Assembly (NCBI GenBank): GCA_021730945.1
Contig: JAKFYH010000046.1
Span: 1 to 64,000, forward strand
DNA length: 64,000 bases
Direction: 5' to 3'
Source of the DNA: Acidobacteriota bacterium
Lineage (GTDB): Bacteria > Acidobacteriota > Vicinamibacteria > Vicinamibacterales > UBA2999
The notes below the pieces were generated by a model, which had not been told where the DNA came from, ran no database searches, and saw nothing but the letters and a program-made list of their open reading frames with translations. This document shows positions 8,441 through 29,272 of this stretch, in pieces. Position numbers and translations under genes: made by a program. Position 1 is the first letter of the stretch, and the number at the start of each line of letters is the position of its first letter.

Positions 8441-10371
8441 TAGCGCGACTCTCCGTAGGTCGGTATCAACCGGACCATGACGCCGAGGAACCGGCTGTCG
8501 TTCGCGCCGGTCTCGAACAGCGGCACGAAGCCAGAGGCCGACGCGATCGACACACTGTAGACGTAGTTGGTCGGGTAATCCGGATGGTACTTGTAGGGTA
8601 CGCCGCGCGGCATTTCGACCTCAAAGACCTGCTGCGAGCCGGCGGCCATCTCGACCACGCGCGGCCCGGTGCCGGCGTCGATGGTCACGCGATTAGGCCG
8701 CGGTCCGGTCTCGAGAATGACGGTCAGCCGGTCGATGCGCAGCGACACCGCCTCCTGGACACCGGCCGCCTGGCTCTCGGGCGCGATCGGCGCGCGAAGC
8801 AGAATATCGGCAGTCGACTCCCCCTTCACCCAGAACGCGTCGCGCTCGCGGTTGTAGATGTTGTCGTCGATGAAATACGCAAAGATCGGCGGCGTGCCAC
8901 CGAGCGGCTGCCGGGTCCGATCGGGCTGCAGGTTGATCGGCAGGTCGTTGACCATCGTCAACTCGATAGGCAGCCGCCGGAACAAGCCCGACTTGCTGTG
9001 CTCGGATGGATGCGTGGAGGCATAGAACGGATTGGCGACGATCCGCATGACAAACAGCCCGCTGATGGCCAGCGTCACTAGTCCGCCCACTGCCGTCTGC
9101 AGGGGCGGCACCAGGAACAGGAACACGCCGTAGGTCCCCAGGAAGTAGCGATTGCCCACCGGTCCGCCGCCGCCCGACCAGGTAAACGGCATGTAAAGCA
9201 GCAGCGCCACGGCCGTGCCGACACCGGCGGCCAGGGTCAGCCACTGCCACATGGCCCGATCGCGGGTGGCGGCCAGGAACAGGATGATGGCCATCAAGCC
9301 GGGAAACAGGTAGACGGCGAAACCGGTGTGGCGGCCAATCACGAAGTACGCGAGGTTGCGCCGAAACACCTCGACCAGCGCGTCGCGGGTGAACAGCACA
9401 CTCAGCGAACCGCCACCGACACTGCCCCGTCCCGCCGTGTCAAACGTCTTGGCGTCGTCCTGATATGGGAAGCCCGGCTGGAAATCGACCCCGCCACCGC
9501 GGTAGAACGTCTTGCGCTCGCCACCCTGGTAGTTCCATTCGCCGGTCACGGCGGTATTGACCGCGAACAACGCGACCACCACCAGCGCGAAGGTTGTTGC
9601 AATCCTGGCCGCTCGAGACCACTGGTTTCGAAGCAGGGCCGACAACACCAGCGGCGCGATCAACAACAGGTTGGTCGGTTTTGCGAACACGCTGACACCC
9701 AGCAGCACCGCAGCAACCAGGTCGGAACGCGGCCCGAGCAGCCACCGCGTGCGCCAAGAAGTCAACTGACTCTCGGCGATCGGGGCGGCCACTTCCTTGT
9801 AGCACCAGGCGTAGTACCCCACCAGGACGATGGCGAAGATGAAGAAGTCCGGTGCGAGCTGCACCATATAGACCGGCACGATCGAGACGAACAGGAATGC
9901 GCCGGCAAACACCAGGGCGCTCACCGGATGGCTGCGCGCGCACAAGAACGTGTAGGCGCACAGAAAGCACAGCGTCATCAGCAGCGCGTGCAGGACCAGG
10001 AAGCCGTTGGTGCCAAACAGCCAGACGAACGGCGCCGCGACCAGCGGATAGATGTACGCCTTGGCATAGAAGAGCCGGCCATCGCGCCCCCGCTTGAGAA
10101 ACAGTCCCTCGGGACCGGTTGGCACTTCCTTCCAGACCCGCGCCAAGTCGTCACGTTGGTACTCGAAATCCAGATCGGCCGCGAGGCTATGCCCGAGGGT
10201 GTAGTAGGTGGCGGCATCGCCAAAGAAACCGCCACCCGAGGCCTTCCAGAAATCAACCGACAGGGCCCAGGTCAGCAGTACGACACCGACCGCGGCGGTG
10301 CTGCTGGCACCGAGGCGCCAGGCCAGGCTCCGTCCCTGCAAACGCTTGGCAACGCTGTGGTCGAGTGTCAT
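8440..10371 (-). CDS. polytopic membrane protein, GT-C glycosyltransferase-like
   Basis: 643 residues: about ten hydrophobic segments in the first two thirds, then a soluble domain of some 180 residues, probably periplasmic. An acidic GDAATYY motif in the first external loop and the pattern RGRDGRLFYAKAY resemble GT-C enzymes that use lipid-linked sugars. The 901-aa protein at 16198-18903 has the matching motifs GDEPHY and RRGADGQIYSIHA, so the two look like distant paralogs. The operon position between two GT4 genes supports a glycan role; transferase activity is inferred. Confidence 0.7.
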   Translation of the reverse strand: MTLDHSVAKRLQGRSLAWRLGASSTAAVGVVLLTWALSVDFWKASGGGFFGDAATYYTLGHSLAADLDFEYQRDDLARVWKEVPTGPEGLFLKRGRDGRLFYAKAYIYPLVAAPFVWLFGTNGFLVLHALLMTLCFLCAYTFLCARSHPVSALVFAGAFLFVSIVPVYMVQLAPDFFIFAIVLVGYYAWCYKEVAAPIAESQLTSWRTRWLLGPRSDLVAAVLLGVSVFAKPTNLLLIAPLVLSALLRNQWSRAARIATTFALVVVALFAVNTAVTGEWNYQGGERKTFYRGGGVDFQPGFPYQDDAKTFDTAGRGSVGGGSLSVLFTRDALVEVFRRNLAYFVIGRHTGFAVYLFPGLMAIILFLAATRDRAMWQWLTLAAGVGTAVALLLYMPFTWSGGGGPVGNRYFLGTYGVFLFLVPPLQTAVGGLVTLAISGLFVMRIVANPFYASTHPSEHSKSGLFRRLPIELTMVNDLPINLQPDRTRQPLGGTPPIFAYFIDDNIYNRERDAFWVKGESTADILLRAPIAPESQAAGVQEAVSLRIDRLTVILETGPRPNRVTIDAGTGPRVVEMAAGSQQVFEVEMPRGVPYKYHPDYPTNYVYSVSIASASGFVPLFETGANDSRFLGVMVRLIPTYGESR

Positions 10372-11588
10372 CGTTCAGTCGTCAGGAAGCTCAAGTCTGC
10401 TTGCAGGATACCTGCGCGGCGGGTGGCGCGCGAGGTCTCGTGCAACAACAGGTACAGCCGCTCCATCTTGCGCACAAAGGCGGCAATGTCGTAGCGCGCG
10501 CCGGTTTCGCGCGATTTTGCCGCCAGCGACGCCGCCAGCGCGGGGTCTTCCACCAGGCGGCAAATGGCGGCGGCCAGCCGATCGGCATCGGCCTTGGGCA
10601 CGACGAGCGCATCGGCGCCATCGGTCAACACGTCCAGCAACCCGTCGGCATCGGTCGCAACCATGGGCTTCCCCATGGCCAGCGCCTCGAACATCGTGAG
10701 CGGTGTCCCTTCCCAGAGCGATGGAAACACCACCAAATCGAAGGCCGACAGCGCCGCGGCGACATCGCGCGTGAAACCGGAGAATACCAGCCGGTCACCC
10801 AACCCCAGCGCTCGCGCCTGCGCTTCGAGTTCCGGCTGCAGCTCGCCTTCGCCAACGATGAAGAAGCGCGCGTGCGGATGCCGGGCCAGCACCATCGGCG
10901 CGGCGGCGATCAGGTACTGATTGCCCTTGGAAGGCATCAACCGAGTCACGGTCCCGATCGCGATGGTGCCGGGAGCCACGCCGAGGCCCTGGCGGGCGGC
11001 GGCAATCTCATCCGCCGAACGCGGCCGCGCAAACTCGTCGAGCGGCGCGCCCAGGTAGACCACCTTCGTACGCTCCGCCGGTACCAGCCGTGCCCGGGTC
11101 GTAAACTCGCCGGTTGACGCCGACACCGCAATCGCCAGATCGGTGTACGGCGCCAGCACCTTGTCGGCGAGTTTCTGAAACCACGGTGTGTCCGTGTGAT
11201 TCGCATGCTCGTGCAAGATGGCGGGAATTCCGAGCCGCCAGGCGCACATCCGGCCAAAGGTTGTCGCGCCGTAGCCGTGCAGATGCACGATGTCCGCCTG
11301 TTTGTCGCGCAGCACTTTCAACAGCGCCGTGAAGGTGGCCGGGTCGAACTTGTGCCGCGCCATGTAGGTGACGTCGATGCCAAATTCTTCGAGCGTGTCG
11401 GCCGACAGATCCTTGCGTCGCAGACTGATTAGCGACACCTTGAAGCGCGTGGCATCGAAGCGGGGGATCATCCACGCAAACAGGCGCTTCACGCCGTGCA
11501 TGCGGGATCCCTCCCACCCGAGGTGGTCGCAGATGTGGACGACGTTGAGCCGCCGGGCACCAGCAGGCGGCGGGGTGGAGGCGTTCAT
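10368..11588 (-). CDS. glycosyltransferase family 4
   Basis: 406 residues. N-terminal LNVVHICDHLGWEGSRMHG is typical of GT4 enzymes acting on lipid-linked or exported glycans. Further in are IVHLHGYGATTFGR, the donor-domain IGTVTRLMPSKGNQYLI near residue 210, and a complete EX7E motif in WEGTPLTMFEAL near residue 295. Overlaps both neighbours by 4 bp in the operon, so its stoichiometry is likely tied to them. Donor and acceptor unknown. Confidence 0.9.
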   Translation of the reverse strand: MNASTPPPAGARRLNVVHICDHLGWEGSRMHGVKRLFAWMIPRFDATRFKVSLISLRRKDLSADTLEEFGIDVTYMARHKFDPATFTALLKVLRDKQADIVHLHGYGATTFGRMCAWRLGIPAILHEHANHTDTPWFQKLADKVLAPYTDLAIAVSASTGEFTTRARLVPAERTKVVYLGAPLDEFARPRSADEIAAARQGLGVAPGTIAIGTVTRLMPSKGNQYLIAAAPMVLARHPHARFFIVGEGELQPELEAQARALGLGDRLVFSGFTRDVAAALSAFDLVVFPSLWEGTPLTMFEALAMGKPMVATDADGLLDVLTDGADALVVPKADADRLAAAICRLVEDPALAASLAAKSRETGARYDIAAFVRKMERLYLLLHETSRATRRAGILQADLSFLTTER

Positions 11589-12577
11589 AGCAGGCCCTCG
11601 TGCCGATACCAGGCGGCCGTCTGGCGAATGCCGTCCTCGAGGTCGACCGTCGGCGAGAACCCGAGCTCGGTCCTGGCGCGTGTGGTGTCGAAGGCGCGGC
11701 TCTTGGTGTAGAAGTCCACCCGGCGCCGGAAAATCGGCGGCTCAATCCGCAGGGGCACGCAGACCATTTCGCACAGCAGACCGGCGGTCCAGAAGGGCCA
11801 GACCGGCCAATGCGTCGTCGGTGGCGCCACCCCGAGTTCTCTCGCCACCAGTCCCACCAGGTCCTCCAGTGTCGTGTAGCGGGGACCGGCAAGGATGTAG
11901 GTGCGGCCGGCAGCCGCGGGCACGGTGCCGCATAGCCGGAACCCCTCGACCAGGTCTGTCACGAACGTCAGGTGGTAGAACACCTGGCCGGCGCCGATCA
12001 TCGGGAACTTCCCCCGCGCCAGGCCGCGAAACAACTTCAGGAAGCGCAGATCACCCGGGCCGTAAATGCCGATTGGCCGCGCCACCACCACATCAAGCCC
12101 CGTGGTCCGCCCGAACTCCCGGGCCAGGGTCTCGGCCTCGAGTTTCGTTTCCTGGTAGACGTCGCCGGGATTAAACGGCGCGTCCTCGGTGGCTGGCGGA
12201 TGCGCGACATGGCCATGCACGCCACCGGTGCTGCAGTGCACCACGCGACGGGCGCCGGCCGCGCGCGCGGCCTCGAGTACGTTGCGGGTACCCTCGACGT
12301 TGATGGCACTGTACGCCGCATCGGGTTGCCCCGCTTCGCGGTAGGTGGCGGCAATGTGATACACCACCTCGACGCCCTCGCACGCGCGTCGCATCGACGC
12401 CGCATTGGTCAGGTCGCCTTCGGCGGCGCGGACACCGGCGGCGGCCAGCGGCGACCGGTCAAACCGGGCACGGCTCTTCGGCCGCACCAGGGCCCGCACG
12501 TCGTCGCCGCCACTGGCCAGCAACGAGGCCAGGTGACCGCCGGTAAAGCCGGTCGCGCCGGTGACGAGGACCCTCAC
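11585..12577 (-). CDS. NAD(P)-dependent sugar epimerase/dehydratase (extended SDR)
   Basis: 330 residues, the usual length for extended short-chain dehydrogenases acting on nucleotide sugars. Seen: cofactor motif TGATGFTGGHL near residue 6, catalytic YQETK (YxxxK) near residue 140, and ARPIGIYGPGD. It resembles hopanoid-associated HpnA-type and UDP-sugar epimerases; the substrate cannot be assigned. GTG start overlapping the upstream GT4 stop (GTGA). Likely makes or modifies a sugar donor used by the flanking glycosyltransferases. Confidence 0.85.
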   Translation of the reverse strand: MRVLVTGATGFTGGHLASLLASGGDDVRALVRPKSRARFDRSPLAAAGVRAAEGDLTNAASMRRACEGVEVVYHIAATYREAGQPDAAYSAINVEGTRNVLEAARAAGARRVVHCSTGGVHGHVAHPPATEDAPFNPGDVYQETKLEAETLAREFGRTTGLDVVVARPIGIYGPGDLRFLKLFRGLARGKFPMIGAGQVFYHLTFVTDLVEGFRLCGTVPAAAGRTYILAGPRYTTLEDLVGLVARELGVAPPTTHWPVWPFWTAGLLCEMVCVPLRIEPPIFRRRVDFYTKSRAFDTTRARTELGFSPTVDLEDGIRQTAAWYRHEGLL

Positions 12578-13818
12578 GGGCGGGCCATCTTGTGATCGAC
12601 CGATTGATGATCGACTGATTGGGTTTGAGGATTGACTGATTGCGAATTGCCCGGCGCCAGCCGCGCGTACGCCTGCGCGGTGCGCCTCACGTACGACTCG
12701 CGGCTGTACTTCTCGTGTGCCACCGCCCGGGCCGCGTCCGCCATGCGCTCGCGTTCCTTAGGTGCATTAATCAAGGCCAGGACTGCTGCCGCGAAGGGCT
12801 CCGCCTCGGGCGCTACGAGTGACGCAATCGCCGGCGTCAGCACCTGGGTATGAGTCAGCAGGTTGGTCGCCACGATCGGCCGGCCCGACCGCAAGTACGA
12901 ATAGATCTTGAGCGGCGTGTTGGTGCCCCGCACCCGCGGTGACACCAGCAGATCGGCCGCCTGCACGAATCCTGGAATCTCCCGGGCCGGCTGCTGCCCG
13001 GTGAACGTCATGACCTCCGCCGCGCCACGCGCTCGGGCCCGGTTGCGGGCCTCGTCCACCTGAGCCGGTTCGCCCCCCACCACCAACACGCGCGCATCGG
13101 GCCGGCGGGTGGCGATAATCGCGGCGGCGTCAATCAGCAGGTCGACACCTTGATACGCCTCAAACGTGCCGGTGTAGAGCGCCAATGGCGCCGCCAGGTC
13201 GATGCCCCAGGCCGCGCGAACCTCGGCCGGCGTGCGGGTCGGCGGCTCGTCCACGTCGCCGCCCATCACGTTCTCGATCAACAGCGACCGCCCGCCGGCG
13301 CCCATCTCAGTGACCGTGTCCTGCAGCTCCTGGCAGATCGTGATCACGACCTGCGACTTGTGCACCATCTGGCCTTCGGCCCAGGTGAACACTTTCCGGA
13401 GCAGCCCCGACTGGCTGTACTTGAAATTGCTCAGTTGCTGCGGCAGGCTCGAGTGCATGTCGTAGAGATGAGGGATGCCCAGCCACCGCGCCAGCCACAC
13501 GCCGACCAAACCCATCTCTTCGTGGGAGTGAATGGCGTCGTAACGTTCGGCCACCACCCGGCGCAGAATCGTCAGCAGCATCAGCCCGTCCAGCACCAGC
13601 TTGGTCGGTGACGGGCCAATCCGCACCTTGGTGACCAGGGGTGGCCGCAGCGACCGGAAGATCCGCAGATTCGGCAGCTCGACATCGCGGCCGACCGGGT
13701 ACGTGATCAAGTCGACGTGATGGCCAAGTTCGCCGAGGGTCTTGATGCGGTGGTATTCGCTGAACGGGGTCCCGCGCGGCTCGAAGAACGGCTCGGGCGC
13801 GAGCATCAGGATGCGCAC
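12574..13818 (-). CDS. glycosyltransferase family 4, degenerate EX7E
   Basis: 414 residues; the start MRILMLAPEPFFEPRGTP is typical of a GT4 subfamily. The donor domain has LYTGTFEAYQGVDLL near residue 215. In the EX7E position the sequence reads RGTNTPLKIYSYLRSGRP, so neither glutamate is present, a variant seen in this subfamily. The C terminus is a low-complexity tail encoded by short AT-rich repeats. First gene of the five-gene glycan operon. The GTG start is 5 nt after a perfect TATAAT (13824-13829, minus strand) with no Shine-Dalgarno, suggesting a leaderless mRNA. Confidence 0.87.
   Translation of the reverse strand: MRILMLAPEPFFEPRGTPFSEYHRIKTLGELGHHVDLITYPVGRDVELPNLRIFRSLRPPLVTKVRIGPSPTKLVLDGLMLLTILRRVVAERYDAIHSHEEMGLVGVWLARWLGIPHLYDMHSSLPQQLSNFKYSQSGLLRKVFTWAEGQMVHKSQVVITICQELQDTVTEMGAGGRSLLIENVMGGDVDEPPTRTPAEVRAAWGIDLAAPLALYTGTFEAYQGVDLLIDAAAIIATRRPDARVLVVGGEPAQVDEARNRARARGAAEVMTFTGQQPAREIPGFVQAADLLVSPRVRGTNTPLKIYSYLRSGRPIVATNLLTHTQVLTPAIASLVAPEAEPFAAAVLALINAPKERERMADAARAVAHEKYSRESYVRRTAQAYARLAPGNSQSVNPQTQSVDHQSVDHKMARP
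12594..12642. repeat. 13-bp degenerate repeat in GT4 tail
   Basis: Three copies of a 13-mer like GATCGACTGATTG (12594-12606, 12609-12621, 12630-12642) encode the tail motif SVDHQSVDHK and relatives. Base composition is much more AT-rich than the surrounding DNA. Confidence 0.75.
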
Positions 13819-13904: not shown

Positions 13905-14837
13905 TTGGTAAAGATCCTCGTCCGCCTCGTCGTCAGCGCCGCCCTCCTGTACTTCGTGCTGCGATCGATCGACCTGGCCGCGCTCTGGGAGCGCGTGCAG
14001 GGGATGAATCCGGCATGGATGGCGCTGGCGCTCGCCTCGTTCGTGTTCATGCAGATGGTGTCGGTCTGGCGGTGGCATCGCCTGCTGCGGGCACAGCACA
14101 TCGAAGTGACGACGCGCACGCTGCGCGAGTCGATTTGGGTCAGCCTGTTCTTCAACAACTTTCTCCCGAGCAATATTGGCGGCGACGTGGTCCGCATCGC
14201 CGACACCGCCGGTCCCGCAGGGTCGAAGACGCTTGCCACCACGGTGGTGCTGGTCGACCGGGTGCTGGGCCTCACGGCGCTGATCGTGGTCGCTACCGTC
14301 GGCGCGTTCGCGGCGTCGCTGGTCGGCATTCATGTCCCGGGAGCGCGTTGGCTGTGGATCATCGCCGCGGCCGGGATTGCCACGGCCGTCCCCATCATCG
14401 CGATCCCGGCACTCACCGCCTACCTGCTGAGGCCCTTGCGCCTGCTCAAGCGGCCATGGGTCGACGAGCGCGTGCAGCGGCTCGAAGATGCCATTGTGCG
14501 CTTCCGCGCCGCGCCGTCGGCGCTGGTTGGTGCCTTCGCCGGCGCGCTCGTGGTCCAGGCGACGATGGTCGCCTTCTATCTGCTGACGGCCAAGGGCCTG
14601 GCCGTACCGTTGCCGATTCTGCTGGGAGCCGTGCTCATTCCCGTGAGCCTGGTCATGCAGATGGCGCCGCTGTCCATCAATGGGTTCGGCGTGCGCGAAG
14701 CGGTGTTCGCCTTCTTCTTCCGGCGGTTCGGACTGCCGATTGATGCCGCGGTGGCCCTGTCGCTGGTGTCCACCGGCCTGGTGATGGGCTTGTCGCTGGT
14801 CGGCGGAATGATGTTCCTGCGGCGGCGCTGGGCCTAG
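13905..14837 (+). CDS. UPF0104/lysylphosphatidylglycerol-synthase-TM-type flippase-like protein
   Basis: 310 residues with about eight membrane segments. It matches the membrane half of MprF-like proteins (UPF0104) without the aminoacyl-transfer domain. Seen: SLFFNNFLPSNIGGDVVR near residue 80, a hallmark of this family, and MAPLSINGFGVREAVF near residue 250. Such stand-alone proteins are proposed to move lipids or lipid-linked sugars; that role is inferred. A TTG at 13905 is used as start; no Shine-Dalgarno is obvious. A second paralog lies at 24606. Its stop overlaps the convergent methyltransferase end by 4 bp. Confidence 0.8.
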   Translation: MVKILVRLVVSAALLYFVLRSIDLAALWERVQGMNPAWMALALASFVFMQMVSVWRWHRLLRAQHIEVTTRTLRESIWVSLFFNNFLPSNIGGDVVRIADTAGPAGSKTLATTVVLVDRVLGLTALIVVATVGAFAASLVGIHVPGARWLWIIAAAGIATAVPIIAIPALTAYLLRPLRLLKRPWVDERVQRLEDAIVRFRAAPSALVGAFAGALVVQATMVAFYLLTAKGLAVPLPILLGAVLIPVSLVMQMAPLSINGFGVREAVFAFFFRRFGLPIDAAVALSLVSTGLVMGLSLVGGMMFLRRRWA

Positions 14838-19103: not shown

Positions 19104-20285
19104 ATGGTGATTCTGCGAGGCGGACGGATCGTAGTGACAGCGGCAGCCCTCCTGGGCCTGGTGGCATGTGAGGCGGCCAAGAGTGCCAACCCCACGGCCC
19201 CGAGTGTCGCAGGCCCCATCCCGGGGGTGTCGATCACCGCCCCCAAGCCGCTTGAGCCGGGCACTGGGGTCACCTTGACCGCCCAGTCGACACCCGTCAC
19301 GCTGCTGATTGAGAATGCCGGTTCGTCCGGCCCGCGCGAGCTCTGGATACAAGTCGAGGTGGCGGCTGACGTCAACTTTGCCCAGGTGGTCCACCAGGCC
19401 GATCGGGTGCAGCCCGGCCCCGATGGGCGCACGGCTTACCAGCTTCCCGAGCCGCTCGGCGCGGGGTTCACATACTTTTGGCGGTCGCGTGCCGCCGACG
19501 GCGCCAACACCGGCCCCTACTCGAGCGTGGCAAGCTTCACCGTGGTCCCGCCGGTAGTCATCGATACGCCCACGCCGCTGGAGCCGACCGGAGCGCTGAG
19601 CAGCAATCGGCCAACCTTTCGCGTCCGCAATGCCACCGTCTCCGGCACTACCGGCGTCGTCTATCGGTTCCACGTATCGACGACCGCCGACATGACCGCG
19701 ACCACGGCGCTGGTGACGGCGACGCCGGGGTCCGATGGACACACGACGATGTCGCTCGGTGAGTTGCCGTACAACACCACGTTTTACTGGCGCGTGCATG
19801 GAACCGACGGCGGCGTGCAATCGGCGCCCTCGGGAGTGGTCAGCTTCCGCACACCAGCTCCGCCGGTGGTCGTGACGCCGTCGCCAACCCCACCCAGTGC
19901 CGCGGGGCCGATTGGCGGCGCGCGTACCATTTCTGCGCAAGAGGCGATGCAGATCATCAAGGGGGTTCACGACGCCGAAGGCTGGAACCTGGGTGGCAGT
20001 TCGTCGCGTGACACGCGGATCAACTTCATCAAGCGCGCGGTGGCGGTGGTGCACTTCGGTCACTCGCAGTACAACCGCAGTGGCCCGGATTCGAACTGGT
20101 GCATCAAGGACGCCGGCGATGGCCGTCCGATTTCCGACGATGTGATCGTGCGCTGCAACACCCGCGACGCCTACGACCTGATCGTCGGCGCCGGCGGCAA
20201 CGGCTATGCCTGGCACGTGGATCCGATTGGCATCCTGCCGGGCAACCAGAACGTCTACCCGCCGCCCCGCTCGTCACTGCCATAG
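19104..20285 (+). CDS. lipoprotein with two beta-sandwich repeats and a novel C-terminal domain (A)
   Basis: 393 residues. The lipobox LLGLVAC near residue 18 marks a lipoprotein. Two fibronectin/Ig-like repeats follow (each ending in a TTFYWRVHG or FTYFWRSRA strand), then a Pro/Thr linker (PSPTPPSAAGP). Residues 271-393 form a compact domain shared with the lipoprotein at 22919: RDTRINFI, GPDSNWCIKDAGDGRP, SDDVIVRCNTR, GAGGNGY, QNVYPP. Two cysteines are invariant. The function of this domain is unknown to me. The ATG at 19104 is preceded by GAGGAACAGG. It sits among GT-C and glycan genes. Confidence 0.8.
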   Translation: MVILRGGRIVVTAAALLGLVACEAAKSANPTAPSVAGPIPGVSITAPKPLEPGTGVTLTAQSTPVTLLIENAGSSGPRELWIQVEVAADVNFAQVVHQADRVQPGPDGRTAYQLPEPLGAGFTYFWRSRAADGANTGPYSSVASFTVVPPVVIDTPTPLEPTGALSSNRPTFRVRNATVSGTTGVVYRFHVSTTADMTATTALVTATPGSDGHTTMSLGELPYNTTFYWRVHGTDGGVQSAPSGVVSFRTPAPPVVVTPSPTPPSAAGPIGGARTISAQEAMQIIKGVHDAEGWNLGGSSSRDTRINFIKRAVAVVHFGHSQYNRSGPDSNWCIKDAGDGRPISDDVIVRCNTRDAYDLIVGAGGNGYAWHVDPIGILPGNQNVYPPPRSSLP

Positions 20286-20324
20286 CCATCGGCGCCACGG
20301 CACTTTTTGATAAAGTACCGTGAC

Positions 20325-21911
20325 GTGACCATTTCCGACCGCGAACTCAAGCGACCACCGTCGCTCGACTTCGCGGTCGTCGCCATCACCCTCCTGGCCG
20401 TCGCCTTCCGCCTCTACCGCATCGACTTCCCCATGGTCGATGGGCACAGCTGGCGCCAGATCACCAACGCTGACATCGCGAGGCATTTCGCCGAAGGCTC
20501 GCTCAACCTGTTCGTGCCCCGCGTGTCGTGGGGCGGCCTTAACGGCGTGGTCGGCATGGAGTTCCCCCTCCTGCAGTACATCACCGGTCTGCTGTGGATA
20601 GTGACGACGGAGTTGCACTGGGTGGCGCGCCTGGTGTCGCTGGCCTTCTCGGTGGCCGGTGTGGTGGCCATCTACCACCTGGGAACGCGGCTCTACGGCC
20701 GTCCGGCCGGCCGCGCTGCGGCGTTTCTGCTGGCCGTGTCGCCGAGTGCCGTGTACTTCGGGCGCAGCCTCCTGTCAGACACGCCGATGATGACCTTCAT
20801 GATTGGCGCGGTGCTGGCGTGGGATCGCTACTTCGATCGTCCGACGCCCACCCGTGCTGGTGTGGCCACGCTGCTGACCATGCTGGGTGCGCTGGTGAAG
20901 TTGCCGGCGATTCTCGTCGCCGCACCGATCGTCGGCCTGGCGTGGTCGCGCCGGCGCTGGGCGGGCGTTTTTGATCGGACCCTGCTGGCTGCCGGCCTCG
21001 TGAGCCTGGCCGGCGTGGTGGCGTGGTACTTCTATGCCGATCGGATCTACCTCGAGACCGGCCTGACGCAAGCGGTCTTCCGGCCGTCAGGCACGTACCC
21101 GCAGACTCTCGCCCCCGGTGCCATCTACGCCTCGGTTTCTCATTTCGCGACCTTCGACCGGTTGAGCAGCATCGAATTCTGGCGCGAGATCCTGGTGCGG
21201 TTCTGGCTCCTGCACCTGACGCCGCTTGGGGTCCTGGCCGCGGCCCTGGCGATCCCGGCGCTGTGGCGCTCCGGCGCGGGCGCCGTCGTCGGCCTGTGGC
21301 TGCTGGGAGGCGCGGCGCTGCTGGTCGTCTCGGCCGAAGGGCAATACCAGCACGAGTTTCATCAGCTACCGTTCCTGCCGCCGCTCTTCCTGGCGTTCGG
21401 TGTCGGCGCGGCGCGGGCGTTCGACGGGACGTACCTGACGGGACTGCTCAAAGTCCGCTACGCCCCAGCGATCGCCGCGGCTGGCCTGGTGGCGGTGGCG
21501 GTGGCGTCGTTTCTGACATCGGGGGTGCGGCCCAATCTCTATCGCGTGACTCGCGAGTACGCTCCGGCCGACCTGTTCATCCATTTTGGCAACGCGATCC
21601 AGGCCCGGGTGCCGCCCGATGCCCTCATCGTCACCGTGGACTACCAGCGAGGCGGCGCCAACTCGCCCATGCTGCTCTTCTTTGCTCGACGGCAGGGCTG
21701 GAGCTTCGATGACTATTCCATCTCGCCTGTCGTGATCGAGAACCTGCGTGCCCATCATGGCGCGCAGTTTTTTGCCACGGTCATCCGCCATGACCTCGAA
21801 CGTCAGCGGGTGGCGGTGATGGACTATTTGGCGCAGTTCGAAACGGTGCCGACACCGCCGGAGGCCGACCAACTATTGCTGGTCGACCTGCGGCGGCGCC
21901 GACAAGATTAG
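20325..21911 (+). CDS. GT-C (family 39-type) glycosyltransferase
   Basis: 528 residues with about ten membrane segments. The first external loop carries VDGHSWRQITNADIARHF, similar to the acidic loop of PMT/ArnT-like enzymes that use polyprenyl-phosphate sugars. PSAVYFGRSLLSDTPMMTF near residue 150 is also typical. The C terminus is a soluble periplasmic segment. I favour the GTG at 20325; a TTG at 20307 is in frame. Follows lipoprotein A by 39 bp on the same strand and converges with a barrel gene 22 bp away. Confidence 0.8.
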   Translation: MTISDRELKRPPSLDFAVVAITLLAVAFRLYRIDFPMVDGHSWRQITNADIARHFAEGSLNLFVPRVSWGGLNGVVGMEFPLLQYITGLLWIVTTELHWVARLVSLAFSVAGVVAIYHLGTRLYGRPAGRAAAFLLAVSPSAVYFGRSLLSDTPMMTFMIGAVLAWDRYFDRPTPTRAGVATLLTMLGALVKLPAILVAAPIVGLAWSRRRWAGVFDRTLLAAGLVSLAGVVAWYFYADRIYLETGLTQAVFRPSGTYPQTLAPGAIYASVSHFATFDRLSSIEFWREILVRFWLLHLTPLGVLAAALAIPALWRSGAGAVVGLWLLGGAALLVVSAEGQYQHEFHQLPFLPPLFLAFGVGAARAFDGTYLTGLLKVRYAPAIAAAGLVAVAVASFLTSGVRPNLYRVTREYAPADLFIHFGNAIQARVPPDALIVTVDYQRGGANSPMLLFFARRQGWSFDDYSISPVVIENLRAHHGAQFFATVIRHDLERQRVAVMDYLAQFETVPTPPEADQLLLVDLRRRRQD

Positions 21912-21933
21912 GGCCGGACGGCCCGGCGGCAGG

Positions 21934-22689
21934 CTAGAAGCGGATGCGGGCGCCGAAGCCGAACTGCAAGCCACCGATCGTGGTGTCCACGTCGCTGACC
22001 AGCAGGCGGACGTTGCTCTTGGCGCTGGTGTAACGGATAAACCCGCCGGCACCCAGGCGAATGCTGTCGTTCTGCCAGAGCATGTAAGTGGCATCGGCGG
22101 CCACGTTGAAGCCGGTGGCGCTGCGCTTCTGGGTTACCACCGCCGGCGCTACGACCACTTCCGTGAAGGTCCCGCCCCGCTCGGCAATCACCACGTCGCT
22201 GACGACATCCTGCTGCAGGCGGAAGAACGAGGGCCCGCCTGAAACCAGCACGTCGATCTTGGTTGTGACCGGAATGATCCAGCCCAGGCTGATGTGGGTG
22301 GCGTTCTCCTTGCGGTACAAGCCGCTGGCCTTGGCGTCGAAGGTCCGCGAGCGGTTGAAGAACACCGGGTGCGGGACCGTGCCGGTCAGGATCGACTCGG
22401 AGGTATTGGTTTCCTGGTGATAGCTCAACCCGACTGTGAAGTTCTTCACGACGCGGTAGTCGATTCCGCCGCCAAACAGGCTGCCTGATGTCCACGAAGC
22501 CGCCGCGTTGGTCGTGGCCGGCTCGTCATACAACGTGTACTGCTTGGAATCGGCAGACTCAGTCGATCCGGATTCCACGCCAAATCCGATATTCAGGTAG
22601 ACGCGGTCGGCAGGCGTGCCCTGCGCGAAAGCCGCGTGCGACCCACCAACTAACACGCCCAACACCAATCCCGCTACGAGTTTTCGCAT
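21934..22689 (-). CDS. outer-membrane beta-barrel protein
   Basis: 251 residues with a signal peptide (LVAGLVLGVLVGGSHAAFAQ) and a C-terminal GFGARIRF that ends in Phe, the usual barrel-assembly signal. Alternating strands (VYLNIGFGVESG, FTVGLSYHQETN, IDVLVSGGPSFF) fit an eight-stranded OmpA/OmpW-size barrel. Substrate unknown. ATG at 22689; an in-frame GTG lies 9 bp upstream. Divergent from lipoprotein B, with 229 bp between the starts. Confidence 0.78.
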   Translation of the reverse strand: MRKLVAGLVLGVLVGGSHAAFAQGTPADRVYLNIGFGVESGSTESADSKQYTLYDEPATTNAAASWTSGSLFGGGIDYRVVKNFTVGLSYHQETNTSESILTGTVPHPVFFNRSRTFDAKASGLYRKENATHISLGWIIPVTTKIDVLVSGGPSFFRLQQDVVSDVVIAERGGTFTEVVVAPAVVTQKRSATGFNVAADATYMLWQNDSIRLGAGGFIRYTSAKSNVRLLVSDVDTTIGGLQFGFGARIRF

Positions 22690-22828
22690 CGTGTCCACTG
22701 CTCCGAATCAAGGGGTCCCAAGGAAACCCAAACGACTAATCCTAGCACGGTGCAAGACTGTAAATGCCAGCTAAATTCTACAAAACAGGGATGTTCTGGC
22801 AGTTGAGCTTAGGGATTTGACCAACCTT

Positions 22829-22837
22829 TGCTATACT
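22829..22837 (+). promoter_or_regulatory. extended -10 promoter of lipoprotein B
   Basis: TGCTATACT at 22829-22837 is a TGn-extended -10 element. The -35 at 17 bp spacing (TTAGGG) is weak. It would give a leader of about 75 nt ending in an AGGAG ribosome site before the ATG at 22919. Confidence 0.5.
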
Positions 22838-22918
22838 GTCGCCCGTAACTCTACCGAGGCACCACCTCCCAGCGGCGATGCGCTAGGTGTCTTTGTCAGG
22901 GTGAGGAGAATCGAATTG

Positions 22919-23797
22919 ATGAAGTCCGCGTCCTGGGTCGCCCTCACGGCGGCTCTTGTTTTCGGTGTGTCCTGCTCCGGCACGCCCATGTCCCCGACCT
23001 CGCCCTCGGCTACGACCGGCGGCACGTTGTCTGCCGGCCCGGATGGAGCCACTATCAAGGTGACCCCTCCCGGCCTCGTGTCCCCGTATGACAGCGAGCG
23101 GATTGAAGGCCGACGGCCGACGTTTGTCTGGACCAATTCCACCGGCATCCACACGTCGGTCGGCTTCTTCTACGAGCTGGAAGTCGTCGACTTCAGCGAT
23201 CAGTTACTGTACGCGCGAACCCTGGGCGAGAGCCTGGGTAGCGGCTCGCACGCGATGGAGATCGACCTCGCGTATGACACGCCGTACGCGTGGCGCATTC
23301 GCGCCGGCCTCGAGGCCGAGCGTGGCCCCTGGTCGGTGTGGGGCATCTTCCGCACCGCCAACGCCCCGGTCGTCGTCGCTACGCCTACGCCCACGCCCAC
23401 CGGCGGCACCATTGGCCCCGCACGAACGATGAGCTTCGAAGAGGTCTACCAGACCATTCTCAGCATTCACAATGGTGGGCGATTCAATCTCGGCGGTAAC
23501 TCGACCCGCGACTATCGGGTGAACTTCATCTTCGGCGCCGTGGCGGCCGTGGCCTACGGGCACGCGCGCTGGAACCCGGCAGGCCCCGATTCGAATTGGT
23601 GTGTCAAGGATGCCGGCGGTGGCCGGCCGCCATCAGATGACGTCGTCGTTCGCTGCAATACGCGGGAAGCGTGGGACTTGATCAGTGGCGCCGGCGGCAA
23701 TGGGTATGGCTTTCACCGCGACTACCTGGGCATCCTGCCCAATTCGCAGAACGTCTATCCTCCGGGACGCGGCGCCCTCGCGTTCATCCCGAACTGA
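22919..23797 (+). CDS. lipoprotein with one beta-sandwich repeat and the shared C-terminal domain (B)
   Basis: 292 residues. Lipobox region VFGVSCSG near residue 19, one Ig-like repeat (FFYELEVVDFSD ... YAWRIRAG), a TPTPTPTGG linker, then residues 166-292 closely matching the C-terminal domain of the lipoprotein at 19104. By hand about 76 of 119 aligned positions are identical: RDYRVNFI, GPDSNWCVKDAGGGRPPSDD, VVVRCNTR, GAGGNGY, QNVYPP. The N-terminal parts are far less similar. Start chosen at the ATG after GTGAGGAGAATCGAATTG. Followed by an intrinsic terminator. Confidence 0.82.
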   Translation: MKSASWVALTAALVFGVSCSGTPMSPTSPSATTGGTLSAGPDGATIKVTPPGLVSPYDSERIEGRRPTFVWTNSTGIHTSVGFFYELEVVDFSDQLLYARTLGESLGSGSHAMEIDLAYDTPYAWRIRAGLEAERGPWSVWGIFRTANAPVVVATPTPTPTGGTIGPARTMSFEEVYQTILSIHNGGRFNLGGNSTRDYRVNFIFGAVAAVAYGHARWNPAGPDSNWCVKDAGGGRPPSDDVVVRCNTREAWDLISGAGGNGYGFHRDYLGILPNSQNVYPPGRGALAFIPN

Positions 23798-23856: not shown

Positions 23857-24600
23857 ATGTACACTCAAATTTGCGTGGCTGAGCCGTCCACCTTCTACAA
23901 GTCGTTTTCAGAAAAGAAGCTGACCACCTATGGCAGCTCGCGGCGCGGCCGCATTGAGCAGCACCGGCTGGCATTGCTTCATCGTTTCCGGCCAGCGCCG
24001 GGCCAGATGGTCGAGGTCGGCCCCGGCCACGGGACGCTCGCCGAACAAGCCGTCGAAGCCGGATGGCAGTACACCGCCATCGAGGCCAGTCCCATCCTGA
24101 TCGAGGTGCTGCGAGCCAAGGGCCTGACCGTCATCGAGTCGTGGGCCCCGCCCATTCCGGTGCCCGACGCCAGCACCGACGTGGTGTACGCCGATCAGGT
24201 GCTCGAACACATGAGCGGCATCGACGCGGCCCGCTCGTTCACCGCCGAGGCGCTGCGGGCGCTCCGGCCAGGCGGCGTGCTGTTCGTGGTGGTGCCCGAC
24301 TATCTCAAGGAACGCACGTTCTTCTGGGACGTCGACTACACGCATAACTTCGTGACCACCGAACGGCGGGTCAGGCAGTTGTTCAACGACGGCGGTTTTG
24401 AGATCCAGCATGTGGAGCGCGGTATCGGCATGGCCACCGGGCTGGCTCGCGATGCCCTGGCCGCCGGTGCGCTGCTGGTCAACCTGCCGGGCCTGGACGC
24501 GCTGTCGCGCTACACCGGCACCGTCGACCTGCTTTTCAGAGTGCGCAAGAACCTGTTTGAGACGCTCACCTTCGTAGCCAGGAAACCGTCCGCCGGGTAG
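23857..24600 (+). CDS. class I SAM methyltransferase
   Basis: 247 residues. Motif I is VEVGPGHGTLAEQA near residue 52; then TAIEASP (acidic residue for ribose), DVVYADQVLEHM and LRPGGVLFVVVPDY. The KSFSEKKLTTYGSSRRGRIE start is common in glycan-locus methyltransferases, but the substrate is not assignable. The ATG is directly after the terminator T-tract with no Shine-Dalgarno; a GTG at 23875 is a plausible alternative. Followed 5 bp later by the flippase-like gene. Confidence 0.82.
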   Translation: MYTQICVAEPSTFYKSFSEKKLTTYGSSRRGRIEQHRLALLHRFRPAPGQMVEVGPGHGTLAEQAVEAGWQYTAIEASPILIEVLRAKGLTVIESWAPPIPVPDASTDVVYADQVLEHMSGIDAARSFTAEALRALRPGGVLFVVVPDYLKERTFFWDVDYTHNFVTTERRVRQLFNDGGFEIQHVERGIGMATGLARDALAAGALLVNLPGLDALSRYTGTVDLLFRVRKNLFETLTFVARKPSAG

Positions 24601-24605
24601 CCGCA

Positions 24606-25556
24606 GTGCTGGACTTTTCCGGCCGCGCCTTGCGGTCCACGCCCGTGCGGGTTGCGATTACGGTCGCGATCCTTTGGTACCTGGCCGCCCGAATCGATAT
24701 GACGGCCTCGGCGCAGGCGATGGCCAGCATCAGGCAGTCGTACCTGGGCATGGTGCTGGTGTTGGTCGGCGTCGACCGCTGCATCATGATCCTCCGCTGG
24801 GTGCTGCTCCTGCGCGCCAGTGGCATTGCAATTACCGTGACCGAAGCCAGTCGCCTCTTCCTGGTCAGTTCGTTCGTCGGCAGCTTCCTGCCAGCCGGCA
24901 TCGGCGGCGACGCGGCACGGGCGTACGGCCTGGCCCGCGATACCACGTCCGGCAGCGAGGCGCTGGCCTCGGTGGCCGTCGATCGCTTGCTGGGGGTGTT
25001 ATCGCTGGTGGTCATGGGGGCGGTCGGCCTGGCTGTCTGGTCGTCTCAATCGGGCGCCGATTGGCGTGTCGCGATCGCTGTCGCCACCGCCGGTGGCGTC
25101 TGCGTCGGGGCCTTCTGGGCCAGCGACGTGGTCCGCTTCGTCGTGCCGGACCACCGCCACGGGCGGTCGGTCACTCGCCGCGTCCTGAAGCTGGGCGACG
25201 CCGTCAGCCGCTATCGCAACCGCCGCGGCGTCCTCGTGCACGTCATGGCGTGGTCACTCGCCGTGCAGATGCTGCGGATCTCGCAGGCATACTTGCTCGG
25301 CATCGGTCTCGGGCTCACCGTGCCGTTCAGCTACTTCCTGCTGTTCATGCCGGTGGCGCTGCTGCTGCTCCTGCTGCCCATCTCGATCAGCGGGTTCGGG
25401 CTGCCCCAGGGCGGCATTGTCTGGATGTTGCGGCCGGCCGGCGTGCCCGATGCCTCGTCTTTTGCCCTGGCCACCCTGATCCTGCTGACCGGCCTGGCCG
25501 GCAACCTGCCTGGCCTGTGGCTATGGCTCCGCGCCCGCGGGCCCCGCCCCGCCTGA
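24606..25556 (+). CDS. UPF0104/lysylphosphatidylglycerol-synthase-TM-type flippase-like protein
   Basis: 316 residues, about eight membrane segments, paralog of the protein at 13905. Family hallmarks: LFLVSSFVGSFLPAGIGGDA near residue 85 and LLPISISGFGLPQGGIVW near residue 260. GTG start 5 bp after the methyltransferase stop, so likely cotranscribed. A role in moving a lipid-linked intermediate is inferred from the family and the glycan context. The end is Arg-rich and cytoplasmic. Confidence 0.8.
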   Translation: MLDFSGRALRSTPVRVAITVAILWYLAARIDMTASAQAMASIRQSYLGMVLVLVGVDRCIMILRWVLLLRASGIAITVTEASRLFLVSSFVGSFLPAGIGGDAARAYGLARDTTSGSEALASVAVDRLLGVLSLVVMGAVGLAVWSSQSGADWRVAIAVATAGGVCVGAFWASDVVRFVVPDHRHGRSVTRRVLKLGDAVSRYRNRRGVLVHVMAWSLAVQMLRISQAYLLGIGLGLTVPFSYFLLFMPVALLLLLLPISISGFGLPQGGIVWMLRPAGVPDASSFALATLILLTGLAGNLPGLWLWLRARGPRPA

Positions 25557-25611
25557 GCCGGAAAAGGTTGTCGCAGAGGCAACAGAAATCCTGTAGAATC
25601 TTGTACTTAGC

Positions 25612-26790
25612 ATGGCTCAGGTCTACGCTGCCAAGTATCTCGCCAAAGCGGCCATGAGCGCCCCCCGCGACCTGGTTCGCGCGGCGGTCGCCAAGTACAC
25701 GCCGCTGCACCCCACGGTGTTCATCTTCCATTGCACGTTCGTGTGCGACGCCCGCTGCGAGATGTGCAGCAACTGGACGCGCGGCAATCGCAAAGAGGAC
25801 ATGACCCTCGAGCAGATCGAGGCCGCGTTCAGTTCGCCGTTGTGGAAGGAAATCGAAAACGCGTCCTTGTCGGGCGGCGAACCGACCACCCGCAACGACA
25901 TGGTCGACATCTGCCGGGTGATGATCGACAAGTTCCCGAAACTGCGCAAGCTGACGCTCAACACCACCGGCATCACCCATCATCGGGCCATTCCGATGCT
26001 GACCAAGGTGGTGCAGATGTGCAACGAGCGCAACGTGATCTTCTCCATGCGGGTGTCGATCGACGGCGTCAACGAGATGCACGGCTCGGTGCGTAACGTC
26101 CGCAACGCGTTCGAGAAGGCCGGCAAGACCATTGCCGCCATGCAGGAACTGCAGAAGACCTACCGGTTCAACTTCGGCATCTCCTCCACTATCTTTTCGA
26201 AGAACCTCGACGACGCCGACAACATCCTGGCGTGGGCCAAGAAAGAGAAGCTCGACATCGTCTTCAACATGGTGCGGTTCACCGACGCCATGCTGGGCAA
26301 CAGCGAGCTCGAAGCCGGCATGAAGCCGATGGGCGCCGAAGAGCAGACGATGCGCAAGTTCTTCCTCGACCGGGTGCGGCAGGATCCGCTCCTGGACGGA
26401 CAGAACTACATCTACATGCACTACGCGGACATGATCGCCAACGGCTATCACCGCACCGCGCCCTGCCCGTTCCAGACCCAGGGCGTGATGTTGAACCCCA
26501 ACGGCGATCTGTTCTTTTGCGAGAACAGCGAGATCATGGGGAATGTGACGCAGGAAGACGCCGCAGCCATCTACTTCCGTGAGTCCTCCCAGGCGCACCG
26601 TCGCGACATCCGCGATCACAAGTGCCCGACCTGCCTCAGCCCCTGCCAGATGAATGTCGCCGCCATCAAGCAGGTCGTGCCCTACGCGCGCTTCCTGGTG
26701 CGCGCCTCGTTGGAGAAGCGGCGCCACGGCGCCACGCCACCATCGGCGCCGCCGGCCATCGACGCCGCCCGCCCATCCGCGCCGCTGTAG
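25612..26790 (+). CDS. radical SAM protein with SPASM-like C-terminal cysteines
   Basis: 392 residues. The radical SAM cluster motif CDARCEMC (CX3CX2C) lies at residues 45-52 after a short helical N terminus. SLSGGEPT is the SAM-binding GGE motif. The C terminus has further cysteines, CPFQTQG, FFCEN and CPTCLSPC, consistent with auxiliary Fe-S clusters. Related enzymes modify peptides, lipids or sugars; the substrate here is unknown. A TAGAAT hexamer 12 nt before the ATG may be the -10. It lies in the glycan region next to MBOAT/SGNH genes. Confidence 0.85.
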   Translation: MAQVYAAKYLAKAAMSAPRDLVRAAVAKYTPLHPTVFIFHCTFVCDARCEMCSNWTRGNRKEDMTLEQIEAAFSSPLWKEIENASLSGGEPTTRNDMVDICRVMIDKFPKLRKLTLNTTGITHHRAIPMLTKVVQMCNERNVIFSMRVSIDGVNEMHGSVRNVRNAFEKAGKTIAAMQELQKTYRFNFGISSTIFSKNLDDADNILAWAKKEKLDIVFNMVRFTDAMLGNSELEAGMKPMGAEEQTMRKFFLDRVRQDPLLDGQNYIYMHYADMIANGYHRTAPCPFQTQGVMLNPNGDLFFCENSEIMGNVTQEDAAAIYFRESSQAHRRDIRDHKCPTCLSPCQMNVAAIKQVVPYARFLVRASLEKRRHGATPPSAPPAIDAARPSAPL

Positions 26791-26840: not shown

Positions 26841-28262
26841 TCAGAATTGAAAGTAGATGAAGTCGCTGGTGCCGGCGTACAGCGTGATGATGCCGTAAAC
26901 CATGACGGCGGCCAGCGCCGCTCGCGCGGACGGCGCCAACGGCCTGACCACACCCCGCTGCTCGGCCCAGGCCCAGGCATGCTGGAGAGCGATCGGCACC
27001 AGGAAGAGCGCGCCAACCCAGGACCAGCTATCGAGCATGTCGAAGTCCATGACGGCGATGTTGGCCAGGAAAGCCGTGGCGTTCTCAAACGATGAGCTAC
27101 GGAAGAAGACCCACGCGACCAGCACGACGGCCTGCGTGACGAAGAACCACGCCAACCGCACGGCCGGGAAACGCCCGGCGCCACGGGCATCCTGCAATCC
27201 CAAGGCCCGCTCGACCGCCAGCGCCACGCCGTGGATGGCCCCCCACACGATGTAGGTGTAGGCCGCCCCGTGCCACAGTCCGCCGAGCACCATCACGACC
27301 AGCAGGTTGCCGTAGGTGCGCAGCCGCCCGCGGCGGTTGCCGCCAAGCGGCACATACAGGTAGTCGCGCAGCCAACTGGACAGCGTGATGTGCCATCGCT
27401 CCCAGAATTCCTTCAGCGACCCAGCCACGTACGGGGCGTTGAAGTTGATCGGCAAGCGGTAGCCAAGCAGGTAGGCTGCGCCGCGCGCGATACTTGAATA
27501 CCCCGCGAAGTCCGCGAAGATCTGGCCCGCGAACATCGCCACCAGCCAGAGCGAGAACGCCGCCGTGGCGCGCTCGCCGTACCCGGCATCCCAGTGTTCG
27601 TTGACGTAGACTGCCAGGTTGTCGGCGCACACCATCTTCAGGAAGAAGCCGACGATGATTAGCCACATGCCTTCGTAGAAGACCTTCAGGCGCAAGCGCC
27701 GCGGCCGCGTCATCTGCGGCAGGAAATCCACCGCCCGGACAATGGGGCCGGCCACCAACTGCGGGAAGAAGATGATGTAGAGAAAGAACCGCGTGAAGCT
27801 GCCGAGCGGCGCCAGCCGGCCGCGATAGACGTCGATGGTGTACGACATCGACTGGAAAGTGTAGAAGCTGATGCCCATGGGCAGGATCAATGACACGGGC
27901 GCCATCGTCATCTCCACACCCATGGCCATGGCGGCCCGCGCCAGCGCATCGTTCAGCAGGTTCGCGTACTTGAAGAATCCCAGCAGGCCAAGGTTGACGG
28001 CCAGCGAGATGCCCAGAATCCATCGGCGCCGGGCGACCGCCGCCGGTGGCATGCGGCCCAGGGCCAGCGCGGCCGCGTAGTCGACCCCCGCGCTCAGCAG
28101 CAGGATGAAGATGTAGGCGGGCACGTGCCACGCGTAGAAGACGACGCTCGCGGCCAGCAGGACGGCGACGTAGGCCGGCTCCACCTTGCGGCGGCCGATC
28201 GTCAGTCGGGCGACCATGACCAGCAGAAACAGGGCGGCAAAGGCCCACGACACGAAGCTCAC
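26841..28262 (-). CDS. MBOAT family O-acyltransferase (AlgI/PatA-like)
   Basis: 473 residues, about eleven membrane segments. MBOAT hallmarks: FYTFQSMSYTIDVYRG near residue 140, LKEFWERWHITLSSWLRDYLY near residue 285, and the catalytic His in LGGLWHGAAYTYIVWGAIHG near residue 325. Such proteins carry acetyl groups across the membrane for polysaccharide or peptidoglycan O-acetylation. The GTG start overlaps the SGNH partner stop (GTGA), and this pairing defines an MBOAT/SGNH system. Confidence 0.92.
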   Translation of the reverse strand: MSFVSWAFAALFLLVMVARLTIGRRKVEPAYVAVLLAASVVFYAWHVPAYIFILLLSAGVDYAAALALGRMPPAAVARRRWILGISLAVNLGLLGFFKYANLLNDALARAAMAMGVEMTMAPVSLILPMGISFYTFQSMSYTIDVYRGRLAPLGSFTRFFLYIIFFPQLVAGPIVRAVDFLPQMTRPRRLRLKVFYEGMWLIIVGFFLKMVCADNLAVYVNEHWDAGYGERATAAFSLWLVAMFAGQIFADFAGYSSIARGAAYLLGYRLPINFNAPYVAGSLKEFWERWHITLSSWLRDYLYVPLGGNRRGRLRTYGNLLVVMVLGGLWHGAAYTYIVWGAIHGVALAVERALGLQDARGAGRFPAVRLAWFFVTQAVVLVAWVFFRSSSFENATAFLANIAVMDFDMLDSWSWVGALFLVPIALQHAWAWAEQRGVVRPLAPSARAALAAVMVYGIITLYAGTSDFIYFQF

Positions 28263-29230
28263 CGAGGCACCACCGGCAGGTAGGGCGTGAGATCCTCGAC
28301 CAGGCGGCGGCTCCAGAACACCGCGCTCGCCTCGCTCAGGTGACTGCCGTCGTGCGAGGTCAGTCCAGTGACGTTCATCCCGATCACCGGCACCCCCAGC
28401 ATCGCGCCGATGGCCACCGGGTTGCCGCCGGCGCCCTCAGGCGTGGGCACGTAGGTCACCGCCATCCGGCTGCCACGGGCATCGAGTTCGGCCTTGAAGG
28501 CGCGCGCGGCGTCGCCAATGCGCGGCCCCACGGGTTCGACCTGATAAACGGCGCTGGCCGCCGCCATCTGGGCTTCAGGCCACGGCGATACCGCCCAGAC
28601 CCCGGTGCGGCGCGACCGATAGGCGATAAATTCATTGCCGAACGGAAACCCCGGCCGTCCGTAGAGATCAATCCAGTTGGGAATGACACGGTGCAGAAAG
28701 CGCCGCGCCTCGTGCCCGGCCTCCCCTTCCCAAATGCGCTTGCGCGCTCCAAACAGCGAGTCCCGTCGGGTGCGCAGGGCCCCAGGGCTGAGCGGCCGCG
28801 CAAAGAAGCCGTCAACGTTGACCACCACCAGCCGTGGCCGAAGGTCGTGCTTTCGGATCAGTTCGAGCGCCCAGGTATCGCCCTCGCGGTAACCGAAGCC
28901 GAACGCATAGTAGGTCACGCCGTGCGCGGCGGCCCAGGGCTCGAGGACGCGGTTGCGGATGGCGAACATCATGCGCGAGGTGCCCACGAACAGGATGTCG
29001 GCGCGCTTCAGATTGGTCAGGGCCTCGGCATCGGTGCCGTGGTACAGCACGTCATGATCCAGGTGGCCGCCGCGATCGTGGGCCAGATAGTACGAGGAAT
29101 CCGGGGGGCGCTGGGCGTGGGAGATGTTGCCCGTCTTACCCGCGAAACCCGGCATCATGAGCCAGGCGAAGTAGGTCAGCCCGACCAGAGTGGCGAAAAC
29201 GGATCCAAATACATACGTCGGCCGCAACAT
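28259..29230 (-). CDS. SGNH-like partner of MBOAT acyltransferase
   Basis: 323 residues with one N-terminal membrane anchor (YVFGSVFATLVGLTYFAWLM) and an extracytoplasmic domain. ADILFVGTSRMMF carries the block I Ser, and HDGSHLSE near the end supplies the Asp/His of the SGNH triad. Proteins of this layout take the acyl group from the MBOAT channel and place it on a glycan. Which glycan is unknown. The start codon lies inside a hairpin (29221-29246). Confidence 0.78.
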   Translation of the reverse strand: MLRPTYVFGSVFATLVGLTYFAWLMMPGFAGKTGNISHAQRPPDSSYYLAHDRGGHLDHDVLYHGTDAEALTNLKRADILFVGTSRMMFAIRNRVLEPWAAAHGVTYYAFGFGYREGDTWALELIRKHDLRPRLVVVNVDGFFARPLSPGALRTRRDSLFGARKRIWEGEAGHEARRFLHRVIPNWIDLYGRPGFPFGNEFIAYRSRRTGVWAVSPWPEAQMAAASAVYQVEPVGPRIGDAARAFKAELDARGSRMAVTYVPTPEGAGGNPVAIGAMLGVPVIGMNVTGLTSHDGSHLSEASAVFWSRRLVEDLTPYLPVVPR

Positions 29231-29246
29231 TTTTCATGTTAGCGGC
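29221..29246 (-). promoter_or_regulatory. hairpin covering the SGNH start codon
   Basis: The two ends GCCGC(T)AACAT and ATGTTGCGGC are complementary over 10 bp with one bulged T around a GAAAA loop. The AUG of the SGNH gene (29230-29228) is in the 3' arm. Confidence 0.5.
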
Positions 29247-29272
29247 AAAGGTGCGCCCGCGCGTGACATTTC

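Follow-up and report, generated by a model that had tools for sequence, protein, structure and literature searches.

The primary literature describes systems close to the locus reported here. CwpV of Clostridioides difficile has five C-terminal types, and each of them is reported to confer protection from siphophages through a block of DNA entry (PMC4737114). Ltp of phage TP-J34, a lipoprotein encoded in the lysogeny module, is described as preventing DNA injection (PMC3952083), and the SitA proteins of myxobacteria as joining a conserved lipoprotein N-terminal part to an exchangeable C-terminal part (PMC8546572). The present analysis concerns a stretch of 64,000 nucleotides from an Acidobacteriota bacterium of the order Vicinamibacterales (assembly GCA_021730945.1, contig JAKFYH010000046.1, positions 1 to 64,000; hereafter, the window) and two predicted lipoproteins encoded there, A and B, which share a C-terminal domain named T1 here. 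We tentatively read this domain as an exchangeable recognition head on surface lipoproteins, the turnover of which would be driven by phages. The features of the two genes are as follows; signal peptides and lipoboxes were, here and throughout, read by eye.

19104..20285, plus strand: lipoprotein A, an open reading frame with a lipobox-like LVAC, an Ig-like stalk and a T1 head
19170..19913, plus strand: stalk of A, kept across the order
19914..20282, plus strand: T1 head of A (residues 271-393)
20097..20102, plus strand: W62-C63 of the T1 head, C63 being half of a proposed disulfide
20154..20156, plus strand: C81 of the T1 head, the other half of the proposed disulfide
22919..23797, plus strand: lipoprotein B, within the open reading frame 22817-23797, with a lipobox-like GVSC, a shorter Ig-like stalk and a T1 head
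23414..23794, plus strand: T1 head of B

The likeness to CwpV lies in a surface-anchored, conserved N-terminal part with exchangeable C-terminal types, which in CwpV are reported to carry the antiphage activity. Here the surface anchor and the variable outer part correspond to the predicted lipobox-like signals and to nine types of head (T1-T9, our own grouping by motifs). CwpV differs in that it is described as a repeat-bearing, phase-variably expressed protein of a Gram-positive cell wall, whereas an antiphage role is only proposed for the heads described here (PMC4737114). A likeness to Ltp is seen in one case, a T2 head on a probable lipoprotein encoded beside an integrase (phage contig L140), and in none for T1; Ltp belongs to another host group and has another head, and the host copies described here are chromosomal and conserved in place (PMC3952083).

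Of 162 genomes of the order, 98 have a match to the stalk of A alone (residues 1-270) at E<=0.001, some of these matches being partial or weak; among 376 sampled genomes of the phylum, matches from beyond the order were weak (best E 1.2e-9). T1 was found in 12 of the same 162 genomes, with 20 domains in total. C-terminal ends were read on 70 stalk-A orthologs. These do not form a random sample: 30 are the loci returned, and 40 more were added in order of rank, with a single locus for each genome. No type could be assigned to five (truncated, frameshifted or headless); the remaining 65 bear nine heads (T1 8, T2 21, T3 10, T4 9, T5 1, T6 1, T7 2, T8 2 and T9 11). The far wider distribution of the stalk, together with the nine heads that it carries, indicates that the head is the exchanged part. 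The sequence-only reading had taken the C-terminal module to be the constrained part of the lipoproteins, and across genomes this view is overturned.

On the stalk tree at least 22 changes of head type are required, against a minimum possible of 8, and when only well supported branches are counted, at least 6 changes are still needed for T2 and at least 4 for T1; the tree was built by a quick method, with support below 80 on 21 of its 62 inner branches. In the genus of the window, with three T1 and five T2 genomes, stalks are on average 69% identical among T1, 69% among T2 and 67% between the two, and the GT4 and epimerase genes of the locus are 83-85% identical between genomes of different heads. 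When three T1/T2 pairs are followed in 30-column windows, identity is 60-93% along the stalk and drops to 16-45% past the linker region, whereas three same-head pairs keep 50-93% throughout. From these comparisons it is nearly certain that the head is an exchanged cassette, swapped near the linker, on a conserved stalk at a conserved locus.

Some loci of the stalk survey depart from the usual arrangement. L143 (G008:C7, about 9482-11571, plus strand) holds two adjacent stalk-A copies with a T2 head on the second only, and in L094/L161 (G066:C208) stalk A and the T2 head lie in different frames, through either a frameshift or an assembly error. T9 (L100, L107, L108, L110, L113, L114, L121, L122, L127, L135 and L136) is a C-terminal head rich in beta structure, ~150 residues long and seemingly unrelated to T1-T8; the one sequence scanned gave no Pfam match.

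The heads of A (123 residues) and B (127 residues) are identical at 76 of 122 aligned positions (62%, E 9e-57 in a single-pair BLASTP), and T1 matches at E<=0.001 occur nowhere else in the window's genome. The shared domain had been proposed from the letters of the window, with its motifs and limits, and is as described; also borne out is the claim that the Ig-like N-terminal parts are far less alike, with best local matches in this genome of E 0.008 and 0.039. Searches of four T1 sequences gave no match in Pfam and nothing credible in NCBIfam, where the only hit, to a 33-residue model at E 0.03, was taken as chance. The same was concluded for the best PHROG hit of two sequences (E 0.058) and for the best match of a 20-row T1 profile among PDB sequences (E 0.75, a beta-glucosidase). 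T1 is a real domain that is unnamed in the libraries searched, as had been suspected, and profile searches of the kind suggested earlier matched it to no characterised family. Pfam likewise holds no family for any head type scanned.

A confident AlphaFold model of T1 was obtained from the 20-row alignment (pLDDT 95.1, pTM 0.89) and shows a compact fold in which two helices are followed by strands. In the fold search that had been advised alongside the prediction, Foldseek found no T1 match in the PDB (best E 2.2, mostly antibodies), and with VIA the best match over the domain, for both T1 models, was the papain-like domain of the fungal lectins MOA and PSL1a, with Z 3.6-4.3, root-mean-square deviation 3.7-4.7 A and 88-98 residues; a Z near 4 may reflect only a common arrangement. 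Further VIA rows, for menin, transglutaminase (TGase) and vasohibin, point weakly to an arrangement like that of papain or transglutaminase.

Twenty-one columns are invariant across 24 T1 rows, and these include 11 polar or charged residues: S30, R32, N54, D59, K65, R71, D75, D76, R84, D88 and Q112 (numbering of the window head). The sequence-only reading had pointed to His, Asp and Arg as in an enzyme or ligand site; Asp and Arg do supply invariant columns, but no His does, and only H50 comes near, with Asp in 1 of the 24 rows. It had also called two Cys invariant. No Cys is invariant across the 24 rows, and the claim holds in part: C63 and C81 are present in all 20 bacterial rows and in the phage copy L036, all of which have an export signal, and both are gone in the phage copies L037, L050 and L052, none of which has a signal peptide. 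This joint presence and joint loss, tracking the export signal, supports the disulfide suggested earlier, formed outside the cytoplasm, and C63 and C81 are probably so linked.

T1 is narrowly distributed. In an even sample of the phylum it was found in 3 of 396 genomes, all from the family of the window and including the window's own genome, and a pattern scan of GTDB contigs gave 12 loci, whose titles all name Acidobacteria, Acidobacteriota or Vicinamibacteraceae. No T1 was found in the plasmids searched. A thirteenth T1 match within the order (G033; L014 and L043) was dropped as an NHL-type repeat protein without the T1 motifs. Whether they sit on A, on B or alone, the T1 heads are 46-76% identical to the head of the window. 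Eighteen of the 20 bacterial copies belong to the one glycan-type cluster, 8 on stalk A and 10 on stalk B, in agreement with the glycan-type context originally assigned to the locus. Elsewhere, L062 has a copy on stalk B outside the cluster, and in L018/L058 the copy sits after the signal peptide and before FN3-like repeats.

In a tree of the 24 T1 heads, A and B copies are intermixed, and a single clade of A heads is rejected (p-AU 0.017). The heads of lipoprotein B vary as well, being T1 or T2 and, in several loci, of a type outside T1-T4. At L061 (G078:C247, 3325-4692, minus strand) the single stalk of lipoprotein B bears both T1 and T2, arranged in tandem. T2, the commonest of the other types, is present in 16 of 396 genomes of the phylum, one of them outside the order, and also tips other secreted Ig- or FN3-type proteins away from the cluster; it lies at or near the C-terminal end in 11 of 13 loci read, the others being L165, with no T2 frame, and L178, in the wrong frame.

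Pattern scans of viral contigs located T1 in four (L036, L037, L050 and L052) and T2 in two (L139 and L140), and neither T3 nor T4 in any. In the survey of gene neighbourhoods proposed with the initial prediction, 18 of the 20 bacterial copies fall in the glycan-type cluster, and the phage contigs with T1 or T2 lie outside any such locus. The L036 protein has a signal peptide followed by T1 and then a proline-rich and helical part; in L037, L050 and L052 the order is the same without the signal peptide. A phrog_3108 gene is found near the L036 copy and a DUF5675 gene near that of L050, while L037 was judged by eye to be phage from its gene content, its scanned genes having no strong PHROG match. 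Adjoining the L050 gene (L050:6309-7991) is a gene for a 560-residue protein in which some stretches resemble ParB and others, weakly, an ADP-ribosyltransferase.

Among predicted viral structures in BFVD, A0A6J5MLQ7 from an uncultured Caudovirales matches the window head closely (Foldseek E 3.5e-14, TM 0.88, 43% identity); it is 90% identical to the L050 protein and uncharacterised, and nothing on it was found in the literature. A0A6J5QSJ9, also uncharacterised and from an uncultured Caudovirales, is remote (15% identity, TM 0.57, E 5.7e-3). T2 in L139 ends a 228-residue protein with an N-terminal half that looks tail-fibre-like by eye, and the gene directly follows those of an SU10-type adaptor (Pfam E 3.7e-11; phrog_399 E 5.2e-7) and a protein of 1344 residues. 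The L140 copy forms the end of a probable lipoprotein of 187 residues, which has an imperfect lipobox and is encoded beside an integrase (phrog_1, E 1.3e-21).

The genes that surround A and B in the window, and belong to the same conserved cluster, are listed below.

10368..13818, minus strand: GT4, NAD epimerase and GT4 (synteny; epimerase and second GT4 also by Pfam)
13905..14837, plus strand: LPG_synthase_TM family membrane protein (Pfam, synteny)
20307..21911, plus strand: GT-C type glycosyltransferase (PMT_2, Pfam), found between A and B in some genomes only
21934..22698, minus strand: small beta-barrel outer-membrane protein (OMP_b-brl, Pfam; hereafter, OMP)
23857..26790, plus strand: methyltransferase, LPG_synthase_TM protein and radical SAM/SPASM protein (synteny, Pfam)

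Across the order the cluster runs from GT4, NAD epimerase, GT4 and an LPG_synthase_TM protein to lipoprotein A, with the GT-C gene following in some genomes, and continues with the OMP on the opposite strand, lipoprotein B, the methyltransferase, a second LPG_synthase_TM protein and the radical SAM protein. Downstream of the latter there is often a methyltransferase, an FAD oxidoreductase and an asparagine-synthase-like gene. Twenty-four stalk-A loci were fetched, 9 for having T1 and 15 picked from the stalk list, and mapped with a home-made gene caller that ignores open reading frames below 80 residues. The cluster houses 22 of them (the exceptions are L149 and L155), and the OMP gene is present in all 22. 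The Ig-like stalk of A itself gives a PhoD_N-like match under the Pfam cut-off. Further along the window, at 26841-30535, an MBOAT gene, a neighbour without Pfam match and a gene that appears SGNH-like by eye lie outside the cluster conserved across the order.

The OMP was considered as a partner that co-varies with T1. Compared with the window's OMP, that of the two other T1 genomes in the genus is 70-85% identical and that of the five T2 genomes 50-53%; in T1 genomes of other genera the value is only 35-40%, and the candidate was rejected in favour of block exchange or descent.

In the arrangement that we propose, a lipid anchor and an Ig-like stalk would present a compact head at the C-terminal tip of A and B, where it would bind something outside the cell, either a phage particle or a surface glycan. 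The host lipoprotein would act like a host-encoded exclusion factor. Phages, which would drive the turnover of heads, would themselves carry related ones on proteins of the virion or, in the lysogenic state, on a lipoprotein of their own. In favour of phage-linked recognition stand the exchange of heads on a conserved stalk and locus, the mixing of A and B copies on the T1 tree, the T1 and T2 heads common to hosts and phage contigs, with phage genes beside T2, and the functional parallels of CwpV and Ltp. The sharing of heads hints at an arms race between phages and their hosts. Several results weigh against this proposal. T1 or T2 occurs in six phage contigs only, and among the isolate phages of INPHARED the window T1 head has no match at E<=1 and T2, T4 and T6 have none at E<=0.1; the L037 head has one, at E 0.9, which was ignored. 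The proteins of L037, L050 and L052 are not lipoproteins and cannot act likewise at the surface of a lysogen. Head labels are clustered on the stalk tree, since shuffled labels average 39.5 changes against the 22 counted and 0 of 200 shuffles were as low; judged by this tree, heads are partly inherited and exchange is not rapid. The tree of T1 heads leaves a single B clade acceptable (p-AU 0.067). In the window's genus, the OMP is 76% identical among T1 genomes and 55% between head types, and stalk B 64% and 51%, so that some exchanges may have taken a block larger than the head; this comparison excludes two LPG_synthase_TM rows, as a genome without the gene scores its paralog as best match. 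Finally, the place of the gene in an outer-surface glycan locus fits glycan binding equally.

The last point leads to the main rival explanation, the one put forward by the sequence-only reading, which we regard as possible, if rather doubtful, and in which the head binds or anchors glycan: it would tether or help to assemble the polymer of the locus, and phages would bind the same polymer as their receptor through a related head. The share of bacterial T1 copies and of fetched stalk-A loci that fall within the glycan-type cluster speaks for it, as do the tail-fibre-like half of the L139 protein behind its tail-type genes and the eleven invariant polar or charged residues, as in a binding site. 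Harder to reconcile with it are GT4 and epimerase neighbours that are equally alike between genomes of different heads, T1 genomes whose head type is the same whether or not the GT-C gene separates A from B, and T2 at the tip of secreted Ig-type proteins outside the locus. Given the likeness of these glycan genes between heads and the six phage contigs with T1 or T2 outside the locus, a phage-related role appears at least as likely as glycan handling. The same invariant polar residues, and the best VIA matches of both models, would also suit an enzyme, such as a hydrolase with a papain-like scaffold that attacks a surface polymer or protein. This is improbable. The catalytic dyad of MOA is reported as Cys215/His257 (PMC8244254), and with neither a Cys nor a His invariant in T1 a papain-type Cys-His dyad is absent; the likeness to MOA and PSL1a is confined to a weak structural match that can, at such Z, stand for a common arrangement, and Foldseek found nothing in the PDB.

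Two further explanations are each considered very improbable. The conserved lipoprotein N-terminal part with its exchangeable C-terminal part recalls SitA, a polymorphic toxin in which the N-terminal part serves as escort for a toxic C-terminal domain with a neighbouring immunity gene; the tips of SitA are described as nucleases with immunity proteins (PMC8546572), whereas the window leaves no room for an immunity gene directly after either head, with 21 bases from A to the GT-C gene and 59 from B to the methyltransferase. The maps of other loci show no head-linked partner gene among open reading frames of at least 80 residues, and the heads scanned match no toxin family. The head types might instead be one family that diverged fast in place, with no exchange at all. 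By eye, T1-T7 have in common a helix, a W..K.GG-like strand and an S.D-like strand, and hhalign among the shallow profiles of T1-T4 puts two of six pairs below E 0.05 (T2-T3 at E 0.0032 and T1-T3 at E 0.013, as single pairs); the other four, at E 0.077 to 0.57, are not significant. T1 heads moreover hold 46-76% identity while close stalks of the same genus bear either T1 or T2, and divergence in place is strained by the interleaving of the two types among close stalks.

A literature search returned nothing relevant, judged by title, on this lipoprotein system, and no wider absence is claimed. The proposal of a phage-driven recognition head can be carried further, to an order-wide, host-encoded phage-exclusion locus, with swappable unnamed head cassettes that move between hosts and phages, serve phages in virion proteins and in a prophage lipoprotein, and lie within the cluster for making the surface glycan, which phages would encounter first; in this full form we think it somewhat unlikely. 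Knowledge of the encounter between Acidobacteriota and phages at the cell surface is scant. The conserved stalk and the natural head chimeras at a fixed locus amount to ready-made swap experiments, and with two head types common to hosts and phages, a single head-ligand pair could explain both sides.

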